Shown here: piece after piece, positions 387-7,964 of the stretch
How the letters are laid out: each line of letters opens with the position of its first letter
Numbering within the stretch: the first letter of the stretch is position 1
DNA from: an uncultured Erysipelotrichaceae bacterium
Lineage (GTDB): Bacteria; Bacillota_I; Bacilli_A; RFN20; CAG-826
NCBI GenBank assembly: GCA_902769185.1
Contig: CACXNV010000009.1
Location: forward strand, 1-39,366
Length of the DNA stretch: 39,366 nucleotides
Direction: 5' to 3'
Notes under the pieces: model-generated
What the model saw: only the letters and a program-made list of their open reading frames with translations
Told to the model about the DNA's origin: nothing
Databases searched by the model: none
Program-made: the position numbers and the translations under genes

Positions 387-761
387 AGCACTCTACACGC
401 ACGAGTGCTTGCAAGAAGAAGAAGAAGAAGATATGCTATAGCTATGAATTAATAAGAAATCCGTATAACGGATAGACTCCCCTGGTCAAGGAGTCTAGGA
501 GTAGAAGGATTTCCGAAAAAATTCTATTAAGGACGAGCTCATTAGTTACTTAGAACAACGGTGCACATTGCTCTAAAAATAAAAATAGTTCTCCTTAATG
601 TCACTACTTAGGTTTTATTGCCTAATAAGTGACTACAACATGATAATCGGATTCTTGAAGTGGACTAGGAAACTTCAATGCTTATTTGATTATCAGATTG
701 TTCATATCCCTCACGGCTATAAATTTATGGAAAACGTAGTCGGAGGATTTAAGGAAAGGAG
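387..761 (+). ncRNA. Structured 5' leader RNA, copy 1 (upstream of surface protein gene)
   Basis: The leader before the gene at 773 can fold into these helices: 387-393/403-409 (7 bp); 456-462/507-513 (7 bp) enclosing 473-480/490-497 (8 bp, loop CCTGGTCAA); 526-533/592-599 (8 bp) enclosing 552-558/568-574 (loop CGGTGCACA); 600-605/628-633 continued by 608-612/621-625; 641-648/688-695 (8 bp) enclosing 655-661/672-678 (loop GGACTAGGAA); and 709-712 plus 714-719 with 737-742 plus 743-746 (10 bp, one bulged A). The last helix ends in GGAGG, 12 nt before the likely Shine-Dalgarno GGAG at 758-761. A second leader at 3454-3868 keeps the same order of helices with different bases. Six AAG triplets at 413-430 are unique to this copy. 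I recognise no known riboswitch class. It may be a cis-regulator, or a larger ncRNA transcribed through to the gene. Confidence 0.72.
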
Positions 762-772
762 AAATATTAAAT

Positions 773-3286
773 ATGAACAAATTATTTACAAAGATTGCTG
801 GCTTAACGTTAGGCTTAGCCATGGCAATCGGAGTGGGTGTTGCTGTTGGAAGCAAAGGTAGTGACGCTAAAGTGGCGAGTGCTGCTGACGAAACACTTAC
901 TTTCAAGGATAAGTATAATGCAAATACTAACTTGAATGGTGTCACCGTACAAGGCACCAACATCAGTGCGAAATTTGAAACAAATGGCGGAAACACTGCC
1001 CCGCAATATTACACAAATGGATATGCTGTACGTTTTTATCAAAAAAATAAAATGACAGTTAAAGCTGGTACAAACACAATGACTTCTATTGTCATAGGTT
1101 TTGGGTCAAGTGATGGTTCATTGGCTATTTCCTCGGATGTAGGCACTTATTCAAATGGAACGTGGACAGGTAGTGCGACATCTGTTGCATTTACTTGCGC
1201 TACTGGATCTGGCAATAGAAGAATTGCATCTGTGACTGTAACATATTCTGGTGGCGGAGCTACTACCTATACTGTTTCTTATGATAAAAATGATAGTGGT
1301 GCCGGCGGTACTATGACAGACACTAAATCTCCATATTCATCTGGAGCAACTGTAACAGTTTTAGCTAATAATTTTACAGCGCCTTCTGGGCATATATTTG
1401 ACCATTGGGATACCAAATCAGATGATAGTGGAACTGATTATAATGCCGATGATACATTCACCATTTCCGACAATACCACTCTTTATGCCCAATGGGCCAC
1501 AGCATTTAATGTTACTTATGTTTCTGGTGAACATAGTAGTAGCGCAAATCATGTAGTCCCAGTTAAATCTGGTTCTACACATAGCTTAATATCTTTTGCC
1601 GAATCAGGATTTGAAGCTGATTCTGGTTGGGCATTTAAAGCATGGAGTATTAATAGTGTTGAAAGAGCCCCAGACTATGAAATCACCGTAAACGCAGCCG
1701 TTACCGTTACTGCTATTTATGAGGAAATTATAGGATATACTCTTGTTACTGATGCTTCTACATTGGTTGCTGGCACAACATTTATTTTACTTCATGAAAG
1801 CGATTCTAAAGCTGCAGGAACATATAGCAATGGTATTTTTCCGCTTGTAAGTGCATCTGTATCTAACAATGTTGCAACAAGTGAAAATGCAACAGTATTT
1901 ACTCTTGGTGGTTCATCAGGAGCTTGGACTATTAAGTTTGGGAATAATTATTTGGGCAAAACTAGTTCAAGTGGTACTGGATTAGAAAACAACAATTCTG
2001 TTACTACTGGTTATCATTGGACAATCAACATTGCTGATGGAAAAGCAACAATGAAGACAGAAAGTAGCGGAAGCAGAGCTTTTGCTTATAATCTTAATTC
2101 TGGTGGAACTGATAGATTTGGTGCATATACACCAAGTAGCACTTATACTTTACCAAGAATGTTCGCAATAATTCCAATTTCCGGTCACAATATTACATTT
2201 AATGAAAATGCAGGCGGAGATACTGTTACTAACATGCCTTCGACATTAACTAATAAGTCAGGAACAGTTTCATTAGATGGCTTAAACGAGCCGAGTAGAG
2301 ACAATTACGTATTCCAAGGTTGGTCGTTAACTTCTTCTGGCGCAGTAGTAGAAAGCGTTACAGTTGGTGATAGTGATGTTGAAGTATTTGCTATTTGGGC
2401 TGTTGCGCCTACACCAGTTGCTACTGCAAAAAGATGTTATTCATTAGTGACTTCTACCGATGGCTTGGTTGCTACTGCAAAATACATTATCGTCGGTCGT
2501 ACAGCTTCTCAACCTTATAGTTATTACGCTTTATCAACCACTCAAAACGGAAACAACCGTGGGCAAGAATCTATTGATCTTTCTGGAACTGTTGCGCCAA
2601 TTACTAGCGATGGTGTTCAAGTTATTACTTTGGGTGGTTCATCAGGAGCTTGGACATTCGGGGTTTCAGGTGGTTATTTGTATGCTGCTTCAGATAGTAA
2701 AAATTATTTGAGGACTCAAGAAACAAATGATGCTAATGGTCAATGGGCAATTAGTATTACTTCTGAAGGCGTTGTTACTGCAACAGCTCAAGGAAGCAAC
2801 TCACATAACCTTCTCCAATATAATAGTTCAAGTGGTATATTTTCTGCTTATGGTAGTGCTCAACAAGATGTTTTCTTGTATAGATTGGATTTTGGAGAAA
2901 CATTATTAGGAAATATTACTTGTAGTGGTTCAGGAAGCCATACATTACCAAACAATTGGTCTTGGAATACTGATTTGCAAGGTGTTTATAACGATTTACC
3001 AGCTGGTGAAAAGACCACATTAGCAAGTGCATCAAGTGCTGGCTTAGCAAGATATGACTACATTGTAGGAAAATATAATCCAAATGGATTAACAGATTCA
3101 ACAAAAACCGATTATGTTCATTTTATAACCGGTAGAACTGTATCACCTATTGGCAATTCTAGAATAATTCTTGATGTTTTGAATGTGAAAAGATCATCAG
3201 CTGCAATTATTATCATTGCAATTTCTGCAGTGAGTTTAGCCTCTATCGGTGGATACTTCTTATTCAGAAAGAAGAAAGAAGACTAA
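773..3286 (+). CDS. Large InlB-repeat surface protein, membrane anchored
   Basis: An 837-aa secreted, membrane-anchored protein, probably an adhesin or other wall-exposed protein. Residues 1-37 are a signal peptide (MNKLFTKIAGLTLGLAMAIG, likely cleaved near VASA). A beta-rich segment follows to about 157. InlB-type repeats ending in 'LYAQWA' and 'VFAIWA' lie near 160-240 and 470-545. Two copies of a roughly 145-residue module, each with GGSSGAWT, lie near 320-465 and 556-705. A Cys-containing region comes before a C-terminal transmembrane helix (about 808-828) and an RKKKED tail. There is no LPXTG motif, so anchoring is by the helix and not by a classical sortase site. The start is fixed by GGAG at 758-761 and by identity with the paralogue at 3879. 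A structured leader precedes the gene and a terminator follows it. The ligand is unknown. Confidence 0.85.
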   Translation: MNKLFTKIAGLTLGLAMAIGVGVAVGSKGSDAKVASAADETLTFKDKYNANTNLNGVTVQGTNISAKFETNGGNTAPQYYTNGYAVRFYQKNKMTVKAGTNTMTSIVIGFGSSDGSLAISSDVGTYSNGTWTGSATSVAFTCATGSGNRRIASVTVTYSGGGATTYTVSYDKNDSGAGGTMTDTKSPYSSGATVTVLANNFTAPSGHIFDHWDTKSDDSGTDYNADDTFTISDNTTLYAQWATAFNVTYVSGEHSSSANHVVPVKSGSTHSLISFAESGFEADSGWAFKAWSINSVERAPDYEITVNAAVTVTAIYEEIIGYTLVTDASTLVAGTTFILLHESDSKAAGTYSNGIFPLVSASVSNNVATSENATVFTLGGSSGAWTIKFGNNYLGKTSSSGTGLENNNSVTTGYHWTINIADGKATMKTESSGSRAFAYNLNSGGTDRFGAYTPSSTYTLPRMFAIIPISGHNITFNENAGGDTVTNMPSTLTNKSGTVSLDGLNEPSRDNYVFQGWSLTSSGAVVESVTVGDSDVEVFAIWAVAPTPVATAKRCYSLVTSTDGLVATAKYIIVGRTASQPYSYYALSTTQNGNNRGQESIDLSGTVAPITSDGVQVITLGGSSGAWTFGVSGGYLYAASDSKNYLRTQETNDANGQWAISITSEGVVTATAQGSNSHNLLQYNSSSGIFSAYGSAQQDVFLYRLDFGETLLGNITCSGSGSHTLPNNWSWNTDLQGVYNDLPAGEKTTLASASSAGLARYDYIVGKYNPNGLTDSTKTDYVHFITGRTVSPIGNSRIILDVLNVKRSSAAIIIIAISAVSLASIGGYFLFRKKKED

Positions 3287-3328
3287 TAGATAAATATATT
3301 TCTATTTATTAAATCTATATAAAGAAAT

Positions 3329-3371
3329 AGGAATGTCCTATAGGTGACCTCTATAGGGCACTCCTTTTCTT
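3329..3371 (+). terminator. Rho-independent terminator after first surface protein gene
   Basis: CCTATAG (3337-3343) pairs with CTATAGG (3351-3357). The stem extends outward through G-U, G-C and T-A pairs and GGA/TCC to 3329/3365, with one mismatch, and is followed by TTTTCTT. It lies 43 nt after the stop codon, so the second surface gene is a separate transcription unit. Confidence 0.75.
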
Positions 3372-3428
3372 GTTATCCTTATATATATTTATTTATATAT
3401 GCGCGTACATAAATATATTAATGATATA

Positions 3429-3449
3429 TATAAATACTTTGTATTTATA
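3429..3449 (+). promoter_or_regulatory. Inverted repeat before leader copy 2 (operator or hairpin)
   Basis: TATAAATAC (3429-3437), TTT, then GTATTTATA (3441-3449) form a perfect 9-bp dyad. It occupies the same position relative to the leader as the dyad at 362-384, and a TATAAA -10-like hexamer (3446-3451) overlaps its right arm. The surroundings are very AT-rich, so either arm alone would be unremarkable. The shared placement is what supports it. Confidence 0.45.
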
Positions 3450-3453
3450 AAAA

Positions 3454-3868
3454 GCACCCCTTATAGATATATGTTGTTTATCATTCTTTTCTTTATTAAT
3501 ATAAAGTAAAGAGTGGACCTAATATTAATAGACTCTTCTGGTCAATTAGTCTAATTAAAGATAAGTATCACTCTTACTCTATATAAGTAGAAATATAGAT
3601 AATTATTATTAAGAGAATATCGATGCATAATATTCTAATAAATAAATAATTATTAGATTTTCTCCTTAATAGAGGTGTCGACATCTTTATCTTTTATATT
3701 ACCTATATATAAGGATAGATACGTTGTCGACCACAACATGTTAGTCAACATTAAATAGGGTGAATAGGAACTCTATATAATTATTGACTTAACTTAGTTG
3801 TTCATATACCTCACGGTCTTAAATTACTTTTTACTATTGAAAACGAGACCGGAGGACAAAGAAAGGAG
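3454..3868 (+). ncRNA. Structured 5' leader RNA, copy 2 (upstream of second surface protein gene)
   Basis: Helices matching copy 1 in order: 3505-3508 plus 3510-3515 with 3569-3578 (10 bp, one bulge) enclosing 3529-3534/3548-3553 (loop again contains CTGGTCAA); 3608-3613/3665-3670 enclosing 3614-3620/3630-3636 (7 bp, loop CGATGCATA); 3677-3683/3725-3731; 3740-3748 with 3784-3793 (9 bp, one bulge) enclosing 3755-3760/3771-3776 (loop TGAATAGGAA); and 3809-3812 plus 3814-3819 with 3846-3855 (10 bp, the same bulged A). Most stem bases differ from copy 1 while pairing is kept, for instance CGGCTA/TAGTCG against CGGTCT/AGACCG. Unpaired blocks are conserved: ACAACATG, GTTCATATnCCTCACGG and GAAAACG. 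The Shine-Dalgarno GGAG is at 3865-3868. Function is unknown. Confidence 0.72.
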
Positions 3869-3878
3869 AAAAATAAAT

Positions 3879-6800
3879 ATGAACAAATTATTTACAAAGA
3901 TTGCTGGCTTAACGTTAGGCTTAGCCATGGCAATCGGAGTAGGTGTCGCACTTGGAAGTAAGAGTAGTGATGTGAAAGCTGTGGAAGCTGCAGTAACAGC
4001 TGCTGGTGGTATAAATTTTAAAACAGGATCTGTTACAGCAAGCAATACAGGAACAACGATTAATGGTGGAACTATGGATGTAACTACCATCGGAACACAA
4101 ACTAATTCGGGTTATTACAATTCAAAAGTAACTGCTGCCACAAATTCTTATTATTCTGCTAGCGGCGGCGTTGGCGGAATAAGAGTTGGAAAATCTAGTG
4201 GCGCAGGAACCATTAAGTTTACATTAACAACAGCAGTTACTGATGCGGTTCGTGTAGATGTTGAGTCATACCAAACAGCTGCAAATGCAACTAAAACTCT
4301 ATGGGTAGATGAATCATCGACTGATGCTGTTACTCCTAGCGATTCAACTGCAACAATATATGAGTTTGATTTAAGTTCTGTGGCGTCACTTACAACGATT
4401 ACAATTAAGACATCATCCCAATTATGGGTTAAGAGTTTTAAATTATATGTTGGTAGGGGAAGCAGCGGACCAGCAACAAGCGGAACTGCAACCTTTACAC
4501 CGACATCAGCATCTGCCGCAACCATTGGTGGCACTTATCCAACCGATGCGTCTGTTATTTTTTCTAATACATATACTTCTACCTACACACAGATGACTAG
4601 TGGTAATTATCAAACTTACACTATCAAAAAATTTGGCGGAAAGAAATTGACTAGTATAAAGCCTTCTATTAAAAGGAACTCTGGTGGTGGCGGAACAGGT
4701 AATATAACCGTGAAAAACGGGACAACCACTTTAGTGAATGAGAGAGCTTTTACAAAAACAAGTATTGATAAGGATAATTTTAAAGATTATGAGATTTTAG
4801 GCAGCTCAGAAACGCTTTGTATTACGGGAAATAATGATTTAATTGTCATTGTTAAAGCCACAGAAAATTCTCTTCACTGCAATAAGCTATCTATCACATG
4901 GGAAAATTCTGATTCAATTACATCTTTAGCAGTAACCAATCCTAAAGTTAGTTTTACTGTTGGTCAACCATTTACCCACGTAAAAGATAATACAACAGTA
5001 GTTACTGCTACATACGCGACTGCTGGTGCTACAACAGTTAGTAGTGGTTTTACTTATACTTTAGGCGGCACAGCTGTTACTACTAGTTACACAATGGCAA
5101 AAGCAGACAATGGTAAAACTGTTGTAGTGACTTATACTGATGCAAATGGATTATCAAAAGCTGCTGACGGGTATGCTATTAGTGTTGATTATGAAGCACT
5201 AGATTCTGATCATTTGACCATGACAACAGGTCCAGTTAATGTTTCTTTAAGTGATGGAACAGTACAACTATCAGCTAGTGTAACCAACCCTAAAGCTGAT
5301 CCAACAATTACATGGAGCAGTGGTGATACTGATAAAGCAACAGTCAATAGTTCTGGCTTGGTAACACTTAAAGCTGCTGGCTCTGTAGTTATTACAGCTT
5401 CAGGCGCAAATAGTGTTTCTAAAACATGTACTGTTGTTATTTCGGCAACCCCATCAGTTACATTAGATGTTACGACTATTTCAAATAAATACACTGGTGA
5501 TCCGGATGTAACGATCACGCCTGATCCTAAGAATATTCCTAATGACGCTGTTTACATTTGGAGTTCTACAAACAATAATGTTGCTACTGTTACTAAGGGA
5601 ACAGGTAATGTTGGTATTGTTCACTTTGAAGGAACAAGCTCACAAAACGAAAGTATCACATTAACTATTAAGAATGCTGCTGAAACAGAAACTTTATGTT
5701 CTGCTTCTGCAACCTTAAGCAATATTACAAAATCTGAGGTTCTTGATTTAACTTTAAGTGAATCAGCACATACATTGTATGATGGCAAATTTGTCAACTC
5801 ATTTACATTGACCGCGACAATCGATGATGAAGATGTCATTGGTAATGCAAATAAAAACATTACTTGGACTAGTAGTGATCCAACAATTGCCGATGTTGAT
5901 AACGGAGAGGTTGTTGTTCTAGGTGAGGGAGGAGATAACGAAAACCCAGTTACAGTTACTATTACTGCAACAAGCACTTACTCTCCTTCTATCTCTAAAA
6001 CATGTACTGTTACAGTTCTTCATGATACCGTAAACAAAATTACTTGGAATGGTAAAACTACACCTGCTAGTTTCTACACAGGAGACGTTCTTGAAGATGT
6101 CTCAAACTGGACATTTGACGCTGAATGGACTAGTGGCGGAAAAGAAAACGGTTTATCATGGGGCACAGGTTCTAATGTTGTACATTTAAACAAATGCGCA
6201 GTCGGAGTTAATCCAACTCCTGAAACTGATAATCCATTAGACACAGATTATGAAGTTGTTATTGGAGATAACAATAAGAGATTAGTACCATTCTATGGTG
6301 AATTTGCTGCCACAGCAAAAACTATGAATGTCAATCAATCTGCTGTTTCAGACATTGAGATTTCACTTGACGATCGCATCGTTAATAATGAATTAGATAT
6401 GTATGATACAGAAGAATTAACATTAGATTACACTGTTACTTATGTTGGTAACGTAAACGATGGAGTTGATGTTGATGTATCTGATGACGGAAAACTAATT
6501 TATGTTGATAATGGCACTGATGGTCATGGAAACGGTACAATTACTATTTCTGGATATCCATGCAATAGTGTTACCTTAACTCTTACAAGTAAGGAGGATA
6601 GTAGTGTTGAAGAAACAATTACTATTCATATTGAAGAAGATGAAGTTCAATCATTATCTTGGACAGGAAGCGGAGTTAGTGATGTTTTAGAATATGAATC
6701 AAACACAAACACTCTTGGACAAGTTTTAGATTCATCAAATTGGACATTTACTGCAACTTGGATTAAAAAAGTTGAAAGCGATTTAACTGTGGGTTCAGGC

Positions 6801-7964
6801 GCTGATAATGTCAACTTAGGAATCTTTAATACAAATGAACCATCTGCTTATAGTGAAGGAACTGCATATAATGCCTCGAGCATATTAGATATTGAATTAA
6901 ATGGAAAATATCTAGTTGCGTTCTATAAAGGCGTTAGAGCATCAGAAACAATTAAGTTAAACATTGTAAAGACATTAGACACTATTAGTAAACCAGCTTC
7001 TTCAGCTCGAACTTATTCTTGGGTCGAGGAAGATGCTACACCTGATTTTTCAAAAGGTGATACTTCTGTTAACTTAAACGGCGTTACTTGGACTAAAAAT
7101 ACTCAAAGTCAAGATATTATTACCGCCGGAACTAAAGCAGTAAGATACAATCAAATTGGAAGAAGTAGCGCACCAGAAACTTTAACACTTACTACTAGTG
7201 GTATTAGTGGAACAATTACAAAAATTACAATTGATTGTTTTAGAGGAGCTAGTACAAATAGCAAAGTGAGTGCTACCGTTGGTGGTGATGAATTTATGGC
7301 GCCATCTAACATTCCAGCGCAATCCAGTAATATTGGTGGCGAAGTTTCTGCAACCGGTTCTAAATCTGGAACAATTGTTATTACTTTAGAAGGTAAAGGA
7401 AGTTCTGGCGCTCAGGTTGCAATTCATTCAATTGAGATTGAATACACTACAACAGTAAATACTCCTATTTCTAATGATGAAAATCATAAAGAAGCACAAT
7501 TCGCGGTCGTTGAATTTGCTCAGTATATGAACGAACAAATGAATGGCAAAAATGTTTGTACTGGCACAAGCGCTCAACGTGATGCCGCTTGGGCAAACGT
7601 CAAAGCAAAGTACAATGCTTTGTTTGGTCCAGAAAGAACTAGCACATTTGATGATACTGAATTAAATTGGGCTAAAGATTTATTGACCAATGCTCACGCC
7701 GAATGGAATGAAATTCATGATTCTGATCAAAAATACTGTTTAGAAAGAGCGTTGGCAACTTATGAATTCTGTGTTGCCCATTATTATTCTAATGATGCAT
7801 TTATGAGTGGAGTTAGAACTTTATCTAGTAATAGTGGAGCTTATCTTAATACGGTGCTTAATACGAAAAACACCTCTGCGGTAATTATTATTGTAGTTAT
7901 CTCTGCAATTAGTGTTGCGGCTATAGGCGGATACTTCTTATTCCGTAAGAAGAAAGAAAAATAA
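3879..7964 (+). CDS. Very large Ig-like (BIG2) surface protein, membrane anchored
   Basis: A 1361-aa paralogue of the protein at 773. The start at 3879 is set by GGAG at 3865-3868 and by a signal peptide identical to that paralogue over its first 20 residues; longer in-frame starts run back through the RNA leader. After the signal peptide come beta-rich segments and bacterial Ig-like units. The clearest is a BIG2-type unit near residues 450-530 with 'TITWSSGDTDKATVNSSG' and 'GSVVITASG', and similar 'TWTSSDPTIADVD' and 'IYVWSST'-like units follow. The last 170 residues are a helical domain with conserved Cys ('NVCTGTSAQRDAAW', 'KYCLERALATYEFC'), partly matched in the paralogue. A transmembrane helix and an RKKKEK tail end the protein; no LPXTG is present. 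It is probably a long extracellular stalk or adhesin, with ligand unknown. Confidence 0.85.
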   Translation: MNKLFTKIAGLTLGLAMAIGVGVALGSKSSDVKAVEAAVTAAGGINFKTGSVTASNTGTTINGGTMDVTTIGTQTNSGYYNSKVTAATNSYYSASGGVGGIRVGKSSGAGTIKFTLTTAVTDAVRVDVESYQTAANATKTLWVDESSTDAVTPSDSTATIYEFDLSSVASLTTITIKTSSQLWVKSFKLYVGRGSSGPATSGTATFTPTSASAATIGGTYPTDASVIFSNTYTSTYTQMTSGNYQTYTIKKFGGKKLTSIKPSIKRNSGGGGTGNITVKNGTTTLVNERAFTKTSIDKDNFKDYEILGSSETLCITGNNDLIVIVKATENSLHCNKLSITWENSDSITSLAVTNPKVSFTVGQPFTHVKDNTTVVTATYATAGATTVSSGFTYTLGGTAVTTSYTMAKADNGKTVVVTYTDANGLSKAADGYAISVDYEALDSDHLTMTTGPVNVSLSDGTVQLSASVTNPKADPTITWSSGDTDKATVNSSGLVTLKAAGSVVITASGANSVSKTCTVVISATPSVTLDVTTISNKYTGDPDVTITPDPKNIPNDAVYIWSSTNNNVATVTKGTGNVGIVHFEGTSSQNESITLTIKNAAETETLCSASATLSNITKSEVLDLTLSESAHTLYDGKFVNSFTLTATIDDEDVIGNANKNITWTSSDPTIADVDNGEVVVLGEGGDNENPVTVTITATSTYSPSISKTCTVTVLHDTVNKITWNGKTTPASFYTGDVLEDVSNWTFDAEWTSGGKENGLSWGTGSNVVHLNKCAVGVNPTPETDNPLDTDYEVVIGDNNKRLVPFYGEFAATAKTMNVNQSAVSDIEISLDDRIVNNELDMYDTEELTLDYTVTYVGNVNDGVDVDVSDDGKLIYVDNGTDGHGNGTITISGYPCNSVTLTLTSKEDSSVEETITIHIEEDEVQSLSWTGSGVSDVLEYESNTNTLGQVLDSSNWTFTATWIKKVESDLTVGSGADNVNLGIFNTNEPSAYSEGTAYNASSILDIELNGKYLVAFYKGVRASETIKLNIVKTLDTISKPASSARTYSWVEEDATPDFSKGDTSVNLNGVTWTKNTQSQDIITAGTKAVRYNQIGRSSAPETLTLTTSGISGTITKITIDCFRGASTNSKVSATVGGDEFMAPSNIPAQSSNIGGEVSATGSKSGTIVITLEGKGSSGAQVAIHSIEIEYTTTVNTPISNDENHKEAQFAVVEFAQYMNEQMNGKNVCTGTSAQRDAAWANVKAKYNALFGPERTSTFDDTELNWAKDLLTNAHAEWNEIHDSDQKYCLERALATYEFCVAHYYSNDAFMSGVRTLSSNSGAYLNTVLNTKNTSAVIIIVVISAISVAAIGGYFLFRKKKEK

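Follow-up and report, generated by a model that had tools for sequence, protein, structure and literature searches.

Two surface-protein genes in a 39,366-nucleotide stretch of DNA from an uncultured member of the Bacilli (the window; an uncultured Erysipelotrichaceae bacterium, GenBank assembly GCA_902769185.1, contig CACXNV010000009.1) are each preceded by a long structured leader, and sequence comparison identifies these leaders as an RNA family not previously described, with covariation support. Gene 1 (773–3286, + strand) encodes an 837-residue protein with a signal peptide beginning MNKLFTKIAGL, List_Bact_rpt repeats and a C-terminal membrane anchor, and gene 2 (3879–7964, + strand) encodes a 1361-residue protein with the same signal peptide and a Big_2 domain; their leaders are referred to as L1 and L2, and a third copy in the same genome as L3. 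The source genome is 1.34 Mb in size and 94% complete, and the host of both genes is probably rumen-associated. Each leader is almost certainly a structured cis-acting element. The fuller explanation, which we hold with somewhat better than even confidence, is that it acts in the translational control of MNK-type surface-protein mRNAs, combining a lock on the ribosome-binding site (RBS), a kissing loop, and a promoter subject to both slippage and the CIRCE operator (controlling inverted repeat of chaperone expression). The sequence statistics that support this are the conserved multi-hairpin fold, the persistence of a palindrome in one loop, and the matches of one strand to the Shine-Dalgarno (SD) sequence and of another to the start codon. 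A preliminary description of this DNA had proposed two homologous, covarying leader RNAs; what goes beyond it is the palindrome in the loop, both of the strands that would lock the RBS, the CIRCE operator and the promoter with its repeat spacer.

That proposal is borne out. The conserved blocks it named align between L1 and L2, which are homologous, and the regions 380–775 and 3445–3882 fold with z-scores of -5.0 and -4.4 respectively against dinucleotide shuffles, none of which folds equally well. The 5′ domain of L1 (456–513; this and all leader features below are on the + strand) consists of the helix GAAATCC/GGATTTC (456–462/507–513) around a hairpin with a UGGUCAA loop (473–497), whose counterpart in L2 lies at 3529–3553; the first stem of L2 is AGTAAAGAGTG, with a bulge, and not AGTAAGAGTG as previously drawn. 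To the right, the P5 5′ strand of L1 (ATTAAGGA, 526–533) pairs with 592–599, and the central domain (600–697) contains a hairpin at 600–633 and a ACAACAUGAUAAUC.../GAUUAUC helix with the apical loop GGACUAGGA. In L1 the UGGUC loop could contact the apical GGACUA loop, but on inspection this does not hold for its relatives, and the idea was dropped. The 3′ hairpin, with a bulged A, occupies 709–746 in L1 (CCUC-A-CGGCUA.../...UAGUCG-GAGG) and 3809–3855 in L2. The window contains no match to an Rfam family at gathering score, the only hits around the leaders being StyR-143 and a microRNA (E up to 5), both sub-threshold and unrelated and thus attributable to chance; nor is there a match in 20 loci holding relatives. 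By the same score neither the window nor these loci contain a member of a known riboswitch aptamer class, in keeping with the earlier statement that no known RNA class was recognised, and in open-licence papers we found no description of such a leader or of promoters combining CIRCE with a repeat spacer.

The leaders have many relatives. Upstream regions from 17 of the 19 genomes of the genus, together with other genera, yielded about 70 leaders, and a covariance model built on the last part of the leader only (the strand complementary to the start codon, the 3′ hairpin and the SD) matches 40 genomes among 279 from the order. These belong without exception to the window's family, are spread over eight genera and usually have one to three matches each. 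When the model was applied to 395 genomes drawn from the class, matches were again confined to this family. The genomes with relatives are uncultured metagenome-assembled genomes (MAGs), several of which were recovered from rumen, reticulum or faeces, and in nearly all cases the element lies directly upstream of the start codon of an MNK-type signal-peptide gene. Leaders are about 330–400 nt in length, with short versions of about 100–200 nt in relatives. L3 is on another contig (G000:C11) with its own CIRCE and a CTT repeat, and two further genes that encode the MNKLFTKIAGL signal peptide are likewise on another contig, one with a leader that is very short and lacks the hairpin, the other with a short leader that has it. 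Because the compared sequences are related and the trees only modestly supported, the permutation numbers given below are guides and not exact probabilities.

Variation in domain length spoiled the RNAalifold structure of one subtype, for which a plain MAFFT alignment was used, and hairpins were therefore counted one by one; the relatives show the stem covariation that had been suggested from L1 and L2 alone. In the 3′ hairpin there are 57 doubly changed cells compared to 13.8 in shuffles, with double changes at seven of seven pairs, although a search for pairing selected the rows, from which a few miscalls were removed, such that the evidence lies in the variety of pair types and not in the percentage paired. 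In the AGAACAA/TTGCTCT hairpin, among 35 distinct sequences found by a search that required a palindrome in the loop, 92 cells are doubly changed compared to 27.7 in shuffles. The stem of this hairpin often keeps an unpaired A.C step and otherwise varies by compensation.

The loop of this second hairpin is its most distinctive part. Nearly every leader has here a 9-nt loop made up of two nucleotides, a 6-nt palindrome and a final purine (A or G), which is the form of the dimerisation initiation site (DIS) of human immunodeficiency virus type 1 and makes it a candidate kissing loop; it is CG-GUGCAC-A in L1 (hairpin 551–575) and CG-AUGCAU-A in L2 (3613–3637). Six hexamers occur across the leaders (GUGCAC, AUGCAU, UAGCUA, UGCGCA, AUCGAU and UGGCCA), and a rough tree requires about 11 parsimony changes among them, all to palindromes. 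The inner loop pairs vary between UA, AU and GC and between GC and CG, with double changes at all three loop pairs. Among hairpins with 9-nt loops, 36 of 145 in the leaders are palindromic, compared to 10 of 520 in the rest of the window and 1.9 of 85 in shuffled leaders. A single molecule cannot form the innermost pairs of such a loop, which points naturally to pairing between two copies. Kissing-loop homodimers therefore explain the palindrome best, and on this pattern we consider it likely that they form. A simple tally gives no clear support to the idea that the leaders of one genome avoid cross-pairing by differing in palindrome (13 two-leader genomes with different hexamers, five with the same).

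Two further strands are complementary to the start of the downstream gene. First, just 3′ of the palindromic hairpin there is an anti-SD strand that matches the leader's own SD: UUCUCCUU at 589–596 in L1 is complementary to the SD of gene 1 (AAGGAGAA, 756–763), and UUUUCUCCUU at 3658–3667 in L2 to that of gene 2 (AAGGAGAAAA, 3863–3872). Cognate pairs score 18.7 compared to 16.2 ± 0.5 when permuted (none of 10,000 permutations as high), with no signal in four control segments, and inclusion of the short leaders and the start-codon region gives z = 5.4 (none of 20,000 permutations); matches of 13 bp (L177) and 16 bp (L187) are among those in this larger set. Secondly, there is an anti-start strand, the conserved UUGUUCAUAU (698–707 in L1, complementary to 771–780; 3798–3807 in L2, complementary to 3877–3886), whose complement AUAUGAACAA lies at the start codon. 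One leader base matches the synonymous third base of codon 2 in all 40 distinct pairs (30 G-C and 10 A-U; shuffle maximum 37), 27 of 40 match at position -2 from the start codon, compared to 15.9 ± 2.6 in shuffles, and the flanks of the strand score 4.90 compared to 3.63 ± 0.16 (none of 5000 shuffles). The leaders thus carry strands complementary to the SD or the start codon, with compensatory change.

In predicted ensembles of L1 and L2 that include coding bases, the middle pair of the anti-start helix has probabilities of 0.87 and 0.93, and anti-SD pairing is 2.7–3.5 kcal/mol costlier than the anti-start fold. The mean predicted probability of the anti-start helix exceeds 0.5 in 18 of 27 leaders, and several of the others have the SD closed instead. 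The two pairings cross, and both together would constitute a pseudoknot. From complementarity and modelled folds together, we judge with good confidence that the RBS lock forms. The earlier suggestion of either a new cis-regulator or a separate non-coding RNA can be narrowed to the former, because the anti-SD and anti-start strands pair with the downstream gene, as expected of a cis leader and not of a free-standing RNA. The blocks described as preserved and unpaired are indeed conserved, but several are paired: CTCACGG forms the 5′ arm of the 3′ hairpin, which has the bulged A and, in its opposite arm, GGAGG; GTTCATAT can pair with the start codon; and CGRTGCAYA is the self-complementary 9-nt loop.

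The leader had been taken to start at 387, but the segment 363–437 is promoter DNA, which places the expected start of the L1 transcript near 443. This segment contains a 21-bp DNA dyad (TACATATAC-AAA-GTATATGTA, 363–383, without assigned strand), which is an operator candidate directly upstream of CIRCE; a CIRCE operator or HrcA site (TTAGCACTC-N9-GAGTGCTTG, 385–411, + strand) with an exact core match; a predicted -35 (TTGCAA, 409–414, +) abutting the CIRCE core; a 17-bp spacer of GAA repeats (415–431, +), the optimal length and predicted to be ON; and a predicted -10 (TATGCT, 432–437, +). Both L1 and L3 combine the GCACTC-N9-GAGTGC operator at the promoter with an HrcA gene in the genome, which also has CIRCE-like sites upstream of hrcA (one mismatch) and upstream of htpG. 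In relatives with CTT or GAA repeats the spacers are mainly 17 bp, then 14 and 20, then 11 and 23 bp, and over about 900 bp the only differences between two MAG records (L062 and L074) are one CTT in the promoter spacer and an alignment edge. A tandem repeat thus varies in number among close relatives, and the promoter is very probably phase-variable, judging from these lengths. The promoter module is separable from the leader, since L2 is a leader without CIRCE and a lipoprotein gene has the promoter without a leader; in this last case (L138, G000:C4:101692–101712) CIRCE and a long CT repeat lie 89 bp before the gene. Similar CT-repeat promoters are present in L087, L093, L101 and L103.

A corresponding dyad lies upstream of L2 (TATAAATAC-TTT-GTATTTATA, 3429–3449, without assigned strand), followed by GCACCCC (3454–3460) in the place of CIRCE. 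Such dyads with 3-bp centres are found in many relatives directly upstream of either CIRCE or GCACCCC, and their arms differ by locus while remaining palindromic. We also note that divergently transcribed genes for NUMOD1-type proteins (L031, L033, L049, L060, L062 and others) often lie across the dyad from the leader promoter; that of L031 (2328–3248, +) was tested and has a homing-endonuclease-type DNA-binding domain (E = 4e-15). As each locus has its own dyad sequence, these proteins are possible locus-specific regulators.

These elements suggest the following mechanism. The default fold would shut the RBS, either at the start codon through the anti-start strand or at the SD through the anti-SD strand, and two leader copies could kiss through their palindromic loops. 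In L1 the palindromic hairpin is nested in P5, and P5 competes with anti-SD:SD pairing; dimerisation is therefore placed such that it could shift the lock, which would make translation dependent on leader concentration or on a partner. In L1, L3 and many relatives the promoter would be repressed by HrcA through CIRCE, with the GAA or CTT spacer slipping in 3-bp steps, a length near 17 bp being ON and 14 or 20 bp OFF or weak. Slippage and HrcA would set transcription, and the leader would then keep translation closed by default. That dimerisation alters translation is a tentative suggestion from the nesting of these elements, and equally speculative is the fullest form of the model, a leader class with homodimerisation-controlled translation in which DIS-like kissing shifts a double anti-SD/anti-start lock, making translation dependent on mRNA concentration and backing up a heat-shock-linked promoter that is phase-variable by repeat slippage.

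Several observations weigh against the explanation that we favour. Dimerisation, the pairings and the translational effect are all things that we infer from sequence, and no ligand, protein or temperature switch has been identified for the leader, whose predicted melting between 37 and 48 °C is gradual. The search from which the covariation of the palindromic hairpin was counted required a palindrome; two looser checks address this, in that minimum free energy folds of four short leaders each hold one 9-nt loop, which is palindromic, and a pattern that describes the stem and disregards the loop recovers the same palindromic loops. The SD is a run of purines and the anti-SD one of pyrimidines, both of low complexity, and the permutation tests are inflated by the relatedness of the sequences. 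Codon 2 changes only about twice on a weakly supported tree, so that its perfect matching represents two compensated events and not dozens. Start codons of ordinary genes in the window are also predicted to be closed, such that closure alone proves little, and start-codon accessibility was dropped as evidence. Finally, L2 lacks CIRCE, and the promoter part is not valid for every leader.

Of the alternatives, the one that survives best is a metabolite riboswitch or protein-binding leader, in which the anti-SD and anti-start strands are an expression platform, the 5′ domains (the UGGUCAA loop and the apical loop GANAUNGGA) recognise a ligand or protein, and the role of the palindromic loop is confined to a tertiary contact or to folding. 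The length and complexity of the leader would fit, as would the UGGUC[AG] loop kept in most long leaders and the apical GGA loop of the central domain, which looks conserved; however, this reading gives no account of hexamers that stay self-complementary through their many changes, most short leaders have the palindromic hairpin yet no 5′ domain, and the downstream surface proteins suggest no pathway that would hint at a ligand. We regard it as unlikely. Less probable still is an RNA thermometer, with heat shock raising expression through relief of HrcA repression and melting of the anti-start helix. That helix is AU-rich, and CIRCE occurs both at the leader promoter and near hrcA and htpG, but the lock is present without CIRCE in L2 and in short leaders, and the mean predicted unpaired state of the start codon rises only from 0.24 at 37 °C to 0.28 at 42 °C and 0.35 at 48 °C; this gradual opening does not support a sharp thermometer.

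The palindromic hexamer might instead be a site at the DNA level, for protein binding or methylation, since all of the hexamers are DNA palindromes and there are other palindromic operators upstream. We consider this very improbable: the 2+6+1 loop sets the symmetry axis of the hexamer half a base off that of the stem, so that stem and loop together do not form a DNA dyad, the stem often has the unpaired A.C step and varies by compensation, and six unrelated hexamers fill the same slot. That these are ordinary unregulated AU-rich 5′ untranslated regions (UTRs), alike through recent duplication, is hardly credible, for although genes 1 and 2 are paralogues in tandem whose signal-peptide DNA is nearly identical, their leaders have diverged by compensated stem changes with loops retained, and the relatives are spread over eight genera.

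A retrovirus-like self-pairing loop thus appears to be conserved beside strands that would block the ribosome site, in an undescribed RNA family. With the DIS of human immunodeficiency virus type 1 the leaders share the layout of the 9-nt loop, in which two residues are followed by a 6-nt palindrome and this by a 3′ purine, and even GUGCAC, which self-pairs in the viral loop and there requires the flanking purines (PMC7357161). They differ in being part of a bacterial mRNA, in having six palindromes, in the first loop residue, which is often C, and in adjoining an anti-SD strand, and the resemblance is one of convergence and not homology. Natural loop-loop contacts between RNA copies or hairpins are also found in the oskar mRNA 3′ UTR and the guanidine-II riboswitch (PMC7357161, PMC9094411), although in other genes, sequences and contexts; our reading, if true, would add a rare natural example of mRNA dimerisation in bacterial gene control. 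Translational riboswitches with anti-SD platforms share the alternative anti-SD:SD pairing and, in L1, a competing strand (P5), but the leaders differ in their crossing anti-start strand and conserved self-complementary loop, and in having no known aptamer and no Rfam match. In the vlhA promoters of Mycoplasma gallisepticum the GAA repeat is upstream of the -35. In the leader promoters, by contrast, the repeat is the -35/-10 spacer itself, beside a CIRCE operator. Common to both is a variable trinucleotide (GAA) repeat before surface-protein genes, the vlhA repeat region being described as lying upstream, in the promoter region (PMC6258824). If the proposed mechanism is right, surface proteins of uncultured, largely rumen-associated Bacilli would be controlled jointly by heat-shock repression, by phase variation through repeat slippage and by RNA folding. 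Class I heat-shock promoters have the same GCACTC-N9-GAGTGC operator, and the hrcA of this genome has its own CIRCE-like site upstream, but here the operator is found at surface-protein and lipoprotein genes with repeat spacers, and not at chaperone genes alone.

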